NCBI GenBank assembly: GCA_903642225.1
Contig: CAHJWI010000001.1
Coordinates: 1 to 64,000 of the forward strand
Length of the DNA: 64,000 nucleotides
From: Acidobacteriaceae bacterium
GTDB lineage: Bacteria > Acidobacteriota > Terriglobia > Terriglobales > Acidobacteriaceae
Reading direction: 5' to 3'
The notes under the pieces were generated by a model that saw only the letters and a list, made by a program, of their open reading frames with translations, ran no database searches and was not told the origin of the DNA. Shown one piece after another: positions 17,600-52,470 of the stretch; within the stretch, counting starts at the first letter, position 1; each line of letters starts with the position of its first letter. Made by a program: the position numbers and the translations under genes.

Positions 17600-19420
17600 T
17601 TAGCGGCGGCTGGATGCAGTACGTCCCTGGATGGTCTTACCAGGTCCGGCGCTCTGCTTCTTCCGCGCACGCTTCGCGGCAATCTCGCGCATCTCCCGGC
17701 CAAGCGGACTCTGGTTCATGGCGAACTGCATCAGCACCATCAACACGTTGCCGACGCACCAGTACAGGCCCAGGCCCGATGCATAATTCCAGGTGATGAA
17801 CAGCGAAAAGGCCGGCATCATGAAGGCCATCATCCGTTGCTGGGCAGGGTCAACACCCGGGCTCGGCATGTAGAACGACACCAGAAACTGCGAGACAACA
17901 AGGAAAATCGGCAGAATATGGTACGGGTCAGCGGCGGTAAGGTCATGCAGCCAAAACCAGTGCGCCTGCCGCAACTCAAACACCTTGGGAATGGTCGACA
18001 GCATGGCAAACAGCAGCGGCAACTGAATCAGTGTCGGGATGCAGCCACCCCACATGCTCACGCCGTTTTCCTTCTGCAGCGCCATAATCTCCGCGTTCAT
18101 GTCCGCGCGCTTGGGGTCGGTCACCTTGTACTTGGCATACTTCGCCTTTACCGCGTCCATCTGCGGCTGAATGCGCTGCATCTTCAGCGCCGACTTCATC
18201 GTCAGGATGCGCAGCGGAATTAGCACCGCATTGATAATGAGCGTAAGCACCACAATCGCCCAGCCCCAGTTGCTCGCCAGGTGGTCGTGTACCCAGTACA
18301 GCGACACGAACAGCGCCTTCGCAATAGGGCCAAAGAAGCCAAAATCCAGCATCGGCTCAAGTGTTGCTGAAGAACCGGCAACCTGCACGGCGCGTAGCAC
18401 AGGAACCGACTTTGGACCGGCAAAGATTCGCACGCGGCTTACGCCTTCGGTAGAACCAACGGCGACGCCGGGCAGGGGCACATCCGCGCTCTTGCCAGAC
18501 GGCTTTCCATTCCGCTGCAACTTCTGCACGTCAATCTGGCGCGAGAACGTCACCGCTGTTCCGTTTGCCGCATCGTTCGGCAGCATCACGGCCGCGAAAT
18601 ACTGGTCGGCAACGCCGGCAAACTGCAGCGGGCTGTTCAGGGTTTCGCCACCAACAATCTTCTTGAACGCGGTGTGCTCTTCCTTGCCGTCGCGCATCGT
18701 CTCAAGCGTCGTTGCGTTGTAGTCCAGCGCCTGCTCCTGATCCCCAAATCCTCCAGGCCACGACAACAGCGCACGAACGGGTGCGCCGTTCCGAAGCACA
18801 GAAATCTCTGAGCCGATCACGTAGGTTTCATCGAAACGAAAGGTCTTCGTCACGTCGAAGCCATTCTGGGCGTAGTGGAAGCTCAGGGTCTGCGGTGCCG
18901 CTAGCGTGCCGCTGCCGGAGGAAACAAATAGCGCTGTGTTCAGCCCGTCGGTCAGTGCCTGGTCATAGGTATGCAACGACAATGGATATCCATAGTGCTG
19001 GGCCGCCGCACCGTTTACCAGGTCGAGGGGAGCCCCATATCGATCTTTCTGCCCTTTCAAAATCCACGAGCGAACTGCCGCTCCCTTGGTCGAGAACACG
19101 ATCCGGTACAGCTGGTTTTCGACGGTGACGGTGCTCTCTGCCGATCCAACAACCACCGGCGCTGCCGTTTGCTGCACAGCCTGCGCGTTGAACGCAGCGG
19201 TACTGCCCGTGGGTGAAGACGGCGTCACCGGCTGGGGTGCACCATTCGCCCCCTGCTGCGTCGTCGACGCGGTTGCGGTGGGCTTCTGCAACGCTTCCGT
19301 CTTGCGGCTGCGATAGAACTGCGACGCGGCAAATACAACAACCATTGCCAGCATGGCGTACAGCAGGAGCTTGTTTTCGGAGCCGCCGCCGCTCGCGTTG
19401 GGATTACGAATTTCTGCCAA
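17600..19420 (-). CDS. yidC: Membrane protein insertase YidC
   Basis: 606 residues from a TTG start preceded by AGGAAG. An N-terminal transmembrane anchor (LLLYAMLAMVVVFAASQF) and a Pro/Thr/Ala linker lead into the large periplasmic beta-supersandwich domain (about residues 80-360). The five-helix 60KD_IMP core follows (WGWAIVVLTLIINAVLIPLR, WGGCIPTLIQLPLLFAM). This is the Gram-negative form of YidC, which inserts and folds inner-membrane proteins alone or with SecYEG. The basic C-terminus (KRARKKQ) is common in ribosome-binding YidCs. Confidence 0.97.
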   Translation of the reverse strand: MAEIRNPNASGGGSENKLLLYAMLAMVVVFAASQFYRSRKTEALQKPTATASTTQQGANGAPQPVTPSSPTGSTAAFNAQAVQQTAAPVVVGSAESTVTVENQLYRIVFSTKGAAVRSWILKGQKDRYGAPLDLVNGAAAQHYGYPLSLHTYDQALTDGLNTALFVSSGSGTLAAPQTLSFHYAQNGFDVTKTFRFDETYVIGSEISVLRNGAPVRALLSWPGGFGDQEQALDYNATTLETMRDGKEEHTAFKKIVGGETLNSPLQFAGVADQYFAAVMLPNDAANGTAVTFSRQIDVQKLQRNGKPSGKSADVPLPGVAVGSTEGVSRVRIFAGPKSVPVLRAVQVAGSSATLEPMLDFGFFGPIAKALFVSLYWVHDHLASNWGWAIVVLTLIINAVLIPLRILTMKSALKMQRIQPQMDAVKAKYAKYKVTDPKRADMNAEIMALQKENGVSMWGGCIPTLIQLPLLFAMLSTIPKVFELRQAHWFWLHDLTAADPYHILPIFLVVSQFLVSFYMPSPGVDPAQQRMMAFMMPAFSLFITWNYASGLGLYWCVGNVLMVLMQFAMNQSPLGREMREIAAKRARKKQSAGPGKTIQGRTASSRR

Positions 19421-20213: not shown

Positions 20214-20429
20214 TCAGCGCAGGGGAACCTGGTCGAGACCGCCTTTGCTGAAAGGATGGCACCGCGCAACACGTCTCACGGCAAGCCACGTCCCGCGTAC
20301 AAGGCCAAAACGAGCAACGGCAACTTCAGCATACTCGGAACAGGTCGGCACATACCTGCACCCACCTACACCGAAACCATGCAGCACCGGCGACACAATA
20401 TACCGGTATAGCCGGAACAGAAAGCCCAT
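20214..20429 (-). CDS. yidD: Membrane protein insertion efficiency factor YidD
   Basis: 71 residues with the YidD signature: [16 protein letters not shown], then [11 protein letters not shown] and [19 protein letters not shown]. It is a small inner-membrane-associated protein that helps YidC-dependent insertion. It starts three bases after the rnpA stop. In most genomes yidC follows directly, but here the frameshifted NTF2-like gene lies between them on the other strand. Confidence 0.95.
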
Positions 20430-20432
20430 CTG

Positions 20433-20939
20433 TCAGGACCCGGTCTTCACGGCATTATTCGGCTTTTTCGGCGCTGGCTTGTTCTTCGACACACCCTTGC
20501 GTTCCCTGAGAGGTGTCGGACTCTGGGGCTTGTCGGCCAGCTTGCGAACCGTCTGGAACGCCTGTGCCACCTCTGACTCCAACTCCGCCCAACTCAAGGT
20601 CAGGTACGTGCGGCGGGGATGCAGCACGACATCCACCGGCAAATCGCTCAACAACCCGGCCTGCCGGCGGACAGCCTCCCGCAACCGCCGCTTGATGCGA
20701 TTCCGATCGTGCGCCTTGCCCAGCACCTTGCCTACAGTCAAACCAACGCGAGGGCCTTCCGGAGGCACAGGCACATTCTTTTTGAGCTCCGCTAACGGCA
20801 CCCGCTTCGCGAAGAAAAAGCTCATCTCCTTCGCATAGTGCTTGCGTGCCACCTTGTATACGGCCTGAAAGTCCGCATGGCGGCGAAGCCTAAGCTGACC
20901 TGCGGGTATAACAGAGAGATTCATCGGCAACGGCTGCAT
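20433..20939 (-). CDS. rnpA: Ribonuclease P protein component
   Basis: Up to 168 residues; the start could be the ATG at 20939 or that at 20924 (MNLSVIPAGQLRLRR). Neither has a strong ribosome-binding site. The RnpA signature is clear: RVGLTVGKVLGKAHDRNRIKRRLREAVR, shortened here, with conserved basic residues that bind the catalytic RNA and the pre-tRNA leader. An unusual basic tail follows (ERKGVSKNKPAPKKPNN). It is part of the rpmH-rnpA-yidD transcript. Confidence 0.95.
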   Translation of the reverse strand: MQPLPMNLSVIPAGQLRLRRHADFQAVYKVARKHYAKEMSFFFAKRVPLAELKKNVPVPPEGPRVGLTVGKVLGKAHDRNRIKRRLREAVRRQAGLLSDLPVDVVLHPRRTYLTLSWAELESEVAQAFQTVRKLADKPQSPTPLRERKGVSKNKPAPKKPNNAVKTGS

Positions 20940-20955
20940 TCAGCACTCAAGCAGG

Positions 20956-20981
20956 GAAGGGCAGACCGAAGTCTGCCCTTC
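20956..20981 (-). other. Stable hairpin between rpmH and rnpA
   Basis: A perfect 11-base stem (GAAGGGCAGAC paired with GTCTGCCCTTC) closes a TTCG loop on the minus-strand transcript, giving a C(UUCG)G tetraloop, an exceptionally stable type. No T-tract follows, so it is not a typical intrinsic terminator. It sits 17 bases upstream of the first possible rnpA start and may set the rpmH:rnpA ratio by attenuation, RNA processing or mRNA stability. Confidence 0.65.
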
Positions 20982-21035
20982 TTGAAAGACGGTATTGCTC
21001 CTCGGCCACTGATGGCGAAGCACGGAACAAACAAA

Positions 21036-21191
21036 CTAGTCGCGGAAGCCGGCAGAGACGGCGATCTTGTGACGACCCTTGGCGCGACGGCGGTTCAACA
21101 CATTCTGACCGGCCTTGGTCTTCATGCGAGTCAAAAAACCGTGGGTCTTGGCGCGGCGGCGGCGATTGGGCTGAAATGTACGCTTTGGCAT
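21036..21191 (-). CDS. rpmH: 50S ribosomal protein L34
   Basis: 51 residues, [20 protein letters not shown] and so on to [13 protein letters not shown], near-perfect for L34. The ATG at 21191 has AGGAG nine bases upstream. L34 is a component of the large subunit near the exit tunnel. It heads the rpmH-rnpA-yidD-yidC series. dnaA, often divergent from rpmH, is replaced here by an S53 protease gene. Confidence 0.98.
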
Positions 21192-21231
21192 GGAAAATGA
21201 TCTCCTGCTGGGGAAGGGCTCTGCTACACCC

Positions 21232-21299
21232 TTGTCCTGAGCTGTAATGTGAATGTCCGGGTACCGGCGCTCTGATGGCACCAGCCACGCTCAGGACAA
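21232..21299 (-). promoter_or_regulatory. Possible structured 5' leader of rpmH
   Basis: Perfect 11-base inverted arms TTGTCCTGAGC (21232-21242) and GCTCAGGACAA (21289-21299) are 46 bases apart, 41 bases upstream of the L34 start. The enclosed segment includes a second near-palindrome, CCGGGTACCGG (about 21257-21267). The transcript could fold into a long stem with an inner hairpin, like a ribosomal-protein leader. No known leader class is recognised; function is inference. Confidence 0.5.
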
Positions 21300-21364
21300 C
21301 CTCTCCAGCATACCGCAAAATTTACAGACGCACCATTGTTGAGTGGACCATGGTGCAATCTACG

Positions 21365-24229
21365 CTATTGCACAACCAACGTAAAGTTCGTCGTGGCCGT
21401 CACACTGCCACCTGGGTACGACTGCGCCGTAATCACATAGTTGTACGTCCCTGCATTACTGGGCGTAGTCGGTGTAGTGCTTAGCGGTGCCGTTCCACTC
21501 CCACAGCCGAGAGCACCCAGTGTCGCCATCGTCAAGCCAGCTGCCAGCAAACCACCGGCGAACGTTCGCCTCCGTCGCAGCGCGACTCCGCCCAGCAAAA
21601 ATCCGCCGAACGCAAAAGCAGCCCATGGGCGCGACCGCAAAGCCGAGTCATTCTGCGCAGTCAAAATCCCCTGCGACGCCGTACCCACCGAAGCGCTGCC
21701 ATTACAGGTGCTGGTCAACGACTGGTACGTGAACGGTGCCGTTACAGTGCTGCGAGCGGCAATGCTCGTATCCAGAAACACAGTGTTGCTGGAGCTCGTC
21801 TGATCCCCGTTTCCGCCAATGAAACAACCAGCAGCCGCACTCGATCCAGTTGCCGGCGCAATGCTGAACAACACCAGACCAGAGTAGTTTGACGACGAAA
21901 GAACAATACTTGAAGTCCCGGTCTTACCCGACACCACGGTCAAAGTCGACGACGGCGTCAGCGAAAGTGCAAAGGTGCCCGTAGCGGCTCCTGTCACAAA
22001 CGTCACCGACGTCGTCGCCGAAGCGTAACTTCCATCTCCGCTATACGAAACGACAAGCGTGTGTGTCCCGGCAGCAAGCGCAGACGTGGTCAGAGTGTAG
22101 CTGTACCCTCCGGAAGCAAGTGTTGCCGCCGTCGCGGTGCCACCGTCCACAGCCAACGTCACCGTACCCGTCGGGGTTGTGCTTGTGCTTGTACCACCCA
22201 CCGTAATGGTGAACGTGGCCACAATGGCGGTTTGCGTAGCAAGCGATGCGACCAGGGTCGGCGTTTGCGCGCTCGGATTTGCAGATGCCGTCACTGCCGA
22301 CGAAAACGCCGCCATGTTCACGGAGCCAAGTCCCGTGGCTTGGTCGTACCCCGAGCCAGTTAGAAATCCCACCACGCCGTTTACGCAACCCGTAGTGCCT
22401 GCCAGGCATGGCACCTGGTTGCTGCCGGAGACGACATCGTTAAACACCGCCGCATTGCTGCTTGCCAGCGAGTACAGCAGCGGATTCACATTGCCCAGCC
22501 GCACGCCGCCATTCGCCTGCTCCACAATTGCCAGCAATCCTGCAAAACTGGGCGCGGCAAGGCTCGTACCAGCCACCGCCAGCGCGCTCGTGGTTGTCGT
22601 GGTGCACTGGCCCGTGTACGTCGTTCCGCTTTCGACACTCGTGTAGGTGGGATCCGCGGTGCAGAAAAAGTACGGGTCGTGGCCTGACGCAGAGAACGCC
22701 ACATCAGGAACATCGCGCGCATTGTCGGCGGGAACACCTGTGCCCCCCTGCCACAGCGGCTTGCTGAAGATGGCACTCGCACCACCGCCGCCGGAGTAGA
22801 TCGTTCCCGATGAACTTTCATTCCATGCAGCCTCTGGGATATAGCCAAGAGCCGAACCACGCTGGCTGTTGTTCGTCGCGCTCCAGTATGTGCCTCCTCC
22901 ATCCACCAGCACAGTACCGCCGACGCCGGTAGCATAGGGCGAACTCGCCGGATAATTCACTTGCGCGCCATCATACGCAAGCGGAGACGTCGAGATGTCG
23001 CAACCTGCCGCGCCGGAATCTCCGCTAGAATTCACAAAAGTCTGCCCCTGCGCACTGGCCTGCCGCAGAAATGGCTCAACGGTATACACCGACGTAACAC
23101 CTTCAGCAGCCTCACACGCCCCGTAACTCATGGTGATAATCTGGCCGGCGTTCGTTGTGATCGCGTATTCCAAAGCCGTAATCACGTCCGGGTTTCGGAT
23201 GGACCCGCTTCCATCGCCGGTATACACAAAGTTGATGGTGGCACCGGGCGCAACCCCACCAGCAAACTCCAGATCGGCTTCCGACTCGGACTCATCGATC
23301 GTATACACGGTTGACACACCGGAGTTTGGTACCAGTGTTAGTACGGGCGCCTTCACTGCCTGACCTGTAAGTGTCTGGAAATAGCCCAGCTGCGCCGTGT
23401 TCACGGCTGTCTGGCCAATCACGGCAATGGTGACACCCGCTCCCGTATAGCCGGAGCTGACCAGCGAATTTGCACCGTAAATCTGACGCACATCGTACGG
23501 CACAAGTTCATGAATGGTCGCACCGAAAGTGCCGGTACCTGTAAGCTCCCCCGACTGCCGGGCCTGGAGCTCTGCCGGCGTTAAGGTACGCTTCACCACG
23601 TGCGGTTCCATCCGGTAGCTGTTCAATCCCTGCACGCCGCTGATCACATCGCGAAAGGCAGATGGCACCGACGGCACCGAAGTATTGCTGAAGAACGTCT
23701 GCCCGTTACGTTGATACCGGCTAAAACGCGTCCCAAACGCACTCTGCGCCGCTGCAGCCGTACCGGTGAACTGGATCAGATTACGGCTCGCACTCACACC
23801 CACAACAGAAAACCCCTGCGACACGAGCCAGTTACGCAGCACCTGCACATCCTGGTCAGACACGCCAAAGCTGGTACCAAACTGCGCTGGCGTCAGCCAC
23901 TGGTGATAACGCGCCGACGCGGGGTTCTGCTGATCCAGCAGCATCTGGTCCAGAGCCGCATTCTGCTGCGCACTGGGCGCAAGTACAAGTGACATCAAGC
24001 CCAGTTCGGCATTGCCGGACACCTCCCCCAGCGCAGTCGATACCTGCAGCCGGCGAGACACCACCTGGGGCAGCGTAGCCCGCGACGTCAGCGAAACATC
24101 TGACCGCAGCCGGTTCGGCAACTCGGTGGCATGTAGTAGCGGAGCGGCCACAGCGAGTATAGGCAGCAGGGCAGTGGTGGAGCGAACACGCGAAAGAATC
24201 ATCGGCACGACGTTTCCTGTTCCAGACAT
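21365..24229 (-). CDS. S53 family (sedolisin/pseudomonalisin-type) serine-carboxyl protease with Ig-like repeat
   Basis: About 954 residues. A signal segment (TTALLPILAVAAPLLHA) is followed by the pro-kumamolisin activation domain (about 45-200). The catalytic domain has the Glu-x3-Asp pair (ESEAD), the oxyanion Asp in NSSGDSGAAGC and the catalytic serine in AGTSLAAPSFAG. A bacterial Ig-like domain (FTITVGGTSTSTTPTGTVTL) and a hydrophobic segment with basic residues (GGVALRRRR) come near the end, and then a lipobox-like LGALGCGSG. S53 proteases work at acidic pH, fitting an acidic-soil habitat. The ATG at 24229 was chosen; an internal ATG at 24202 is possible. Confidence 0.92.
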   Translation of the reverse strand: MSGTGNVVPMILSRVRSTTALLPILAVAAPLLHATELPNRLRSDVSLTSRATLPQVVSRRLQVSTALGEVSGNAELGLMSLVLAPSAQQNAALDQMLLDQQNPASARYHQWLTPAQFGTSFGVSDQDVQVLRNWLVSQGFSVVGVSASRNLIQFTGTAAAAQSAFGTRFSRYQRNGQTFFSNTSVPSVPSAFRDVISGVQGLNSYRMEPHVVKRTLTPAELQARQSGELTGTGTFGATIHELVPYDVRQIYGANSLVSSGYTGAGVTIAVIGQTAVNTAQLGYFQTLTGQAVKAPVLTLVPNSGVSTVYTIDESESEADLEFAGGVAPGATINFVYTGDGSGSIRNPDVITALEYAITTNAGQIITMSYGACEAAEGVTSVYTVEPFLRQASAQGQTFVNSSGDSGAAGCDISTSPLAYDGAQVNYPASSPYATGVGGTVLVDGGGTYWSATNNSQRGSALGYIPEAAWNESSSGTIYSGGGGASAIFSKPLWQGGTGVPADNARDVPDVAFSASGHDPYFFCTADPTYTSVESGTTYTGQCTTTTTSALAVAGTSLAAPSFAGLLAIVEQANGGVRLGNVNPLLYSLASSNAAVFNDVVSGSNQVPCLAGTTGCVNGVVGFLTGSGYDQATGLGSVNMAAFSSAVTASANPSAQTPTLVASLATQTAIVATFTITVGGTSTSTTPTGTVTLAVDGGTATAATLASGGYSYTLTTSALAAGTHTLVVSYSGDGSYASATTSVTFVTGAATGTFALSLTPSSTLTVVSGKTGTSSIVLSSSNYSGLVLFSIAPATGSSAAAGCFIGGNGDQTSSSNTVFLDTSIAARSTVTAPFTYQSLTSTCNGSASVGTASQGILTAQNDSALRSRPWAAFAFGGFLLGGVALRRRRTFAGGLLAAGLTMATLGALGCGSGTAPLSTTPTTPSNAGTYNYVITAQSYPGGSVTATTNFTLVVQ

Positions 24230-52422: not shown

Positions 52423-52438
52423 CGTTCCACGTGGAACA
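52423..52438. promoter_or_regulatory. parS centromere site 1
   Basis: Sixteen bases with the perfect palindromic core GTTCCACGTGGAAC, one symmetrical substitution from the widespread parS consensus TGTTTCACGTGAAACA. It starts at the base after the rsmG stop codon and lies 78 bases upstream of parA. ParB should bind here, spread along DNA and mark the origin for segregation. Confidence 0.93.
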
Positions 52439-52454: not shown

Positions 52455-52470
52455 TGTTCCACGTGGAACA
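52455..52470. promoter_or_regulatory. parS centromere site 2
   Basis: TGTTCCACGTGGAACA, a perfect 16-base palindrome with the same core as site 1. The two centres are 32 bases apart, about three helical turns, so ParB dimers would sit on the same face. It lies 46 bases upstream of the parA start and may also mediate autoregulation. Confidence 0.95.

Follow-up and report, generated by a model that had tools for sequence, protein, structure and literature searches.

Stem-loops at the extreme 5′-end are reported to stabilise the ompA and papA messengers of E. coli (Emory, Bouvet and Belasco in 1992 and related studies). The leader of rpmH described here resembles them in that a stem is predicted at the very start of the transcript, leaving one or two bases unpaired, and in the less structured ribosome-binding stretch that follows the stem. 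It differs in the great length of the enclosed domain, which ranges from tens of nt to about 100, and in the partner strand, which is a different one in the source species; its transcript start is a predicted one. The leaders of ribosomal-protein genes (L20, L31, S4, S15 and others) described in PMC7247131 likewise lie in the 5′ untranslated region of such a gene and belong to one lineage; in contrast to them, the rpmH leader has no convincing covariation, no likeness to rRNA at the level of words, no terminator and no clear sequestration. From the same phylum come the structured RNA candidates Acido-1 and Acido-Lenti-1, which PMC2864571 classes as not cis-regulatory, but no Rfam match to either was obtained in the window (the whole stretch of 64,000 nucleotides analysed) or in the loci of six congeners. 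Rfam 15 gave no family above the gathering threshold for these sequences, with a chance-level match at E ≤10. The preliminary description knew of no rpmH leader in this phylum, and Rfam and the searched literature agree with it: none appeared in titles or abstract openings, the phrase “rpmH leader” was not found by a literature search that covered few subscription papers, and term look-ups in the main texts of PMC7247131, PMC11109978, PMC2864571 and PMC2965389 met neither rpmH nor L34.

The locus, the inverted repeat and the predicted promoter

The start codon of rpmH is at 21191 and a gap of 173 bases separates it from the upstream gene on the same strand (Table 1). Since this gene stops at 21365, positions 21192–21364 make up the entire intergenic region. 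Just as the preliminary description had stated, the two arms of the inverted repeat found there match in 11/11 bases, lie 46 bases apart and enclose an inner palindrome. The latter, CCGGGTACCGG (plus strand), forms a short hairpin in the predicted fold. When the intergenic region was shuffled by mononucleotides, a perfect repeat of at least 11 bases was obtained once in 1000 trials, and such a repeat is present in 3 of the 369 tiles of 173 bases covering the window, thus it is unusual yet not unique there.

Table 1. Features of the rpmH region, with positions in the window
Feature	Position	Strand	Basis or remark
rpmH, ribosomal protein bL34, 51 aa	21036-21191	minus	Pfam PF00468, 72.7 bits
rnpA	20433-20939		Pfam; in the run after rpmH
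yidD	20214-20429		Pfam; after rnpA
yidC	17600-19420		Pfam; after yidD
Gene with pro-kumamolisin activation domain	stop at 21365	minus	Pfam; upstream of rpmH
5′ arm, TTGTCCTGAGC	21289-21299	minus	Repeat search and congener comparison
3′ arm, GCTCAGGACAA	21232-21242	minus	Repeat search and congener comparison
GGACA element	21254-21258	minus	Kept in 11/11 long-leader congeners
Linker, TTCACATTACAGCTCA (consensus CACTTTACAGCTCA)	21238-21253	minus	Conserved among long-leader congeners
GCAGGAGA, contains Shine-Dalgarno	21201-21208	minus	Invariant in long-leader congeners
Predicted −10, TATGCT	21307-21312	minus	Comparative alignment; TATACT in most relatives
Weak −35, TGGTGC	21330-21335	minus	Sequence, 17 bp upstream of −10; family consensus TTGCC-like
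Predicted transcription start	21299-21300	minus	Comparison; 6-7 nt past −10

Other repeats were also seen in the window. Between rpmH and rnpA, a perfect 11-bp inverted repeat with a 4-base loop, GAAGGGCAGAC (20956–20981), is terminator-like or may be a processing hairpin, and it is missing from the list of the terminator scan. Two exact GTTCCACGTGGAAC palindromes (52424–52437 and 52456–52469), which we take to be parS-like, stand where a parA-like gene begins, with a parB-like gene next to it; both gene names come from reading translations only.

L34 was present in all 19 genomes of the genus, in 98/101 relatives and in 290/299 genomes of the family. Altogether 258 rpmH upstreams were analysed, of which 245 were distinct, and 232 were left after removing L102 and L107–L119 (the retained row L105 is labelled Alphaproteobacteria); 80 loci were taken from named genomes. 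Because a strict consensus scan found no promoter in the window, the promoter assignment rests on comparison. The 165 distinct upstreams that contain exactly one TATACT have a TT(G/T)GCC-like −35 region and carry T, T and G at 7, 8 and 9 nt after TATACT in 90, 77 and 83%, respectively, and the distance from TATACT to TTG is exactly 6 in 109 of them, whatever the leader length. In the window, TATGCT stands seven bases ahead of TTGTCC, which places the predicted transcript start at the repeat's base. The location of the repeat in the 5′ untranslated region of rpmH, expected from the beginning, is borne out by this predicted promoter, which is conserved and lies upstream of the repeat, and the predicted start is not downstream of it. 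As the initial TTG is kept even without a leader hairpin, the 5′ arm may be fixed by promoter function alone. The initially transcribed TTGCC or TTGTC of the rpmH promoters of the family (e.g., 21294–21312) keeps a fixed distance from the −10 box also where no hairpin follows, and it echoes the TTGCC found in the −35 region.

A leader shared by part of one genus

A long rpmH leader of 109 to 186 nt occurs in 11 of the 19 genomes of the genus (L001, L003, L005, L006, L007, L010, L011, L014, L015, L018 and L019, representing about seven lineages), while the remaining eight have short leaders of 38 to 70 nt with a different sequence. GTTGTCC at the predicted transcript start and CTCA at the end of the linker are invariant in all 11, and between the conserved blocks both length and content vary so strongly that the stretches no longer align. 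On a tree of L34 and RnpA the long-leader rows form one side of a branch (support 74/91), and the leader class requires a single change compared with a mean of 7.7 in shuffles. Scanning the genome of the source species for the 21-base block of GGACAT and the linker gave a single exact match, the one in the rpmH leader, and one site with three mismatches. Model R1, built on the 3′ parts of all 11 long leaders and therefore matching these by construction, found only one weak match more among the 19 congeners, and at E ≤0.05 it hit 8 of 250 family genomes, namely seven long-leader congeners and G159 (E 0.03). Judged by these comparisons, we conclude that the rpmH leader is real, conserved and lineage-specific; it is absent from the wider family and restricted to some members of a single genus. 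A conserved upstream reading frame was considered and rejected when the leaders were read by eye: the 14-codon frame of L003, which ends just before the Shine-Dalgarno sequence, is lost in its closest relative, L006.

The candidate leader proposed for rpmH is supported in so far as the congeners do have a conserved leader, but its exact 11-bp stem is found in only one of the 11, the source species. TGAGC after TTGTCC and GGACAA after GCTCA co-occur there alone among the 11 compared; L007 has TGAG without GGACAA, and the other nine have neither. The outer halves of the stem consist of the conserved bases TTGTCC and CTCA. The upstream GGACA is likely the ancestral partner of TGTCC and would still be its partner in the other ten congeners. 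A TGTCC–GGACA stem was seen in the full-leader folds of several congeners, and when the 5′ domain was folded alone, UGUCC or GUCCG paired with the GGACA region in 11/11, in domains whose ends had been chosen as complementary. In the source species, the partner strand appears to have been replaced while the 5′ arm is still predicted to be paired. Our verdict is that the striking repeat is probably a species-private version of the 5′-terminal stem. The case also shows how an eye-catching perfect repeat can belong to one species alone, the conserved element being the plainer one next to it.

Folding, 5′-end pairing and competing explanations

The predicted leader of the window (21192–21300, 109 nt) has a computed folding energy of −41.6 kcal/mol, and its main domain rests on the 11-bp helix. 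Its z was −2.91 (1/200 dinucleotide shuffles as good), an independent run gave −3.51 (0/200), and the mean pairing of P1, the predicted 5′-terminal stem with the TGTCC strand at the transcript start, was 0.93, an equally high value being predicted in 5/60 shuffles. Full-length folding of the 11 long leaders resulted in a mean z of −0.50, positive in four of them, compared with about −0.4 for stretches upstream of the promoter (11 values) and −0.46 for 43 other long leaders, i.e., apart from the source species the scores were no better than those of the controls. The separately folded 5′ domains and 3′ parts gave means of −1.05 and −1.14, and each was negative in 11/11.

Pairs were counted only on alignment A2, which covers the 3′ part, because alignment A1 places GGACA wrongly in several rows; in A2 the GAGC of L005 is off by two columns. 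Pairing was possible in 87.5% of the 88 cells of the 3′ part, compared with 84.2% in shuffles (30/500 equally high) and 43–66% in slid versions. The covariation that had been proposed as a check is thin in these leaders: compensatory changes are almost absent, the single pair changed on both sides belongs to the 3′ hairpin of one lineage (2/88 cells), RNAalifold gave no consensus pairs on the leader 3′ part, and the substitutions between sister species spared pairs no more than random placement does. P1 gives no covariation because it is invariant. Sequestration of the Shine-Dalgarno sequence by the linker (CUUU with GGAG) was rejected as a candidate, being present in some folds while accessibility is not below that of shuffles as a rule; in the source species the Shine-Dalgarno sequence is predicted to pair with the UUUUCC directly after it, not with the linker.

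Pairing of the transcript start was compared in 197 leaders, mainly of Acidobacteriaceae, grouped into 107 clusters. The first bases were more paired than in shuffles in 73 clusters (Wilcoxon p 5e-6), and the excess was 0.139 at the 5′-end window versus 0.072 and 0.008 at two internal windows. The long leaders of the genus (nine rows, two near copies dropped) reached 0.715 versus 0.453 in shuffles and 46 long leaders of other genera 0.579 versus 0.491. The predicted 5′-end pairing is a modest family-wide tendency. A universal 5′ hairpin of the family was rejected, as 13 of 45 short leaders, a set selected by the A/U-rich follow-on element, have four matched 5′ pairs (G-U allowed), and with the P1 values given above for other genera the idea survives only as a tendency.

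The leader combines conserved blocks, a single-lineage distribution and a computed 5′-end pairing above that of shuffles. Our tentative preference, held at somewhat less than even odds, is that its stem shields or insulates the rpmH messenger. Transcription would begin at, or just ahead of, the 5′ arm, so that the first bases, (G)UUGUCC, would form a 5′-terminal stem, their partner being GGACA in most congeners with a long leader and, over 11 bp, GGACAA plus GCUCA in the source species. Such a stem would keep the 5′-end of the messenger paired, may in this way protect it from 5′-end-dependent decay, and would set the ribosome-binding segment apart from a folded domain at the 5′-end. Protection or insulation ranks in our estimate before the lack of any RNA function, and the latter before a leader bound by a ribosomal protein.

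If the leader had no function as RNA, which we consider possible but rather doubtful, its start would be promoter DNA, its 3′-end the Shine-Dalgarno sequence, the rest shared ancestry, and the repeat a product of chance. The fixed distance of TTG past TATACT at any leader length, the neutral sister-pair test, the ordinary folding scores of most members and the equally long repeats in three tiles of the window would all fit this. Two observations speak against it: GGACA and the linker have been kept amid stretches that are past alignment, and the 5′-end pairing exceeds both the shuffles in 73/107 clusters and the internal windows. Autoregulation, in which L34 or another ribosomal protein would bind the folded leader and repress the translation of rpmH, is unlikely. 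The element, which does lie upstream of a ribosomal-protein gene and has a conserved linker that a protein could read, is limited to part of one genus and missing from 8/19 congeners, and its interior is unconserved. Weak pairing of the linker with the Shine-Dalgarno sequence is predicted (mean probability at least 0.30 in 6/11), yet the accessibility of the latter is generally not below that of shuffles (ranks from 3/40 in L005 to 37/40 in L015), and the conserved words occur in the 23S locus of congener G005 at chance level in a word-level comparison. Nothing in the analysis points to the control by a ribosomal protein that the preliminary description had suggested by analogy.

Two readings appear more remote. 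A transcription factor might read GGACATnCACTTTACAGCTCA as a DNA operator downstream of the start, and a conserved block of 21 bases with one exact copy in its own genome would suit such a site; however, the block lies at widely differing distances from the promoter and from the start codon, it lacks the symmetry of a dyad, and the genome offers no second good site, all of which make an operator improbable. A transcription attenuator with terminator and antiterminator, which a folded leader heading a gene cluster might bring to mind, is hardly credible, since no terminator-like site was found in 20900–21450 and the 11 leaders, read by eye, have no long U tract past their hairpins.

Separation of rpmH from dnaA

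In none of the 11 long-leader congeners was dnaA found in the roughly 1.5 kb ahead of rpmH (1341 nt of sequence in the case of L015), while it lies there in all seven testable short-leader congeners; the eighth, L013, has only 398 nt of upstream sequence. In the genome of the source species, dnaA is about 120 kb away from rpmH. Since the tree contains a single event, this link is an association and not a proof, and in 92 other loci, 57 of them with DnaA, leader length showed no relation to dnaA adjacency (Mann–Whitney p 0.81).

A 19-bp dyad, TTGCACCRNNNNTKGTGAA, counted with a slightly looser pattern, occurs upstream of rpmH in 44/232 upstreams (e.g., L002, L042 and L151), with 0.0 expected from shuffles. 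It is also found just upstream of the relocated dnaA in L291 (the genome of the source species, L291:1965), L292, L295 and L296, and its distribution suggests an operator or origin element travelling with dnaA. The 7-bp inverted repeat GCACCAT...ATGGTGC across the predicted −35 region (21330–21356) starts like this dyad (TTGCACCAT), of which it may be a remnant.

As a speculation to which we give little credence, this could be the first leader that controls bL34, having arisen once in the branch of the genus where rpmH separated from dnaA and replacing what the shared rpmH/dnaA region had contributed. GCUCA would then switch partners, being taken by the 5′ arm in the source species (perhaps also in L007) and by a hairpin adjoining the Shine-Dalgarno sequence in most congeners, so that the leader could toggle between protected and translated states.

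If the leader is real, it would belong to rpmH, a gene without a leader in the literature searched, and would have arisen inside one genus after the neighbourhood of rpmH and dnaA had split. It would let one ask how the output of a ribosomal protein stays balanced once its gene has lost its old neighbour.
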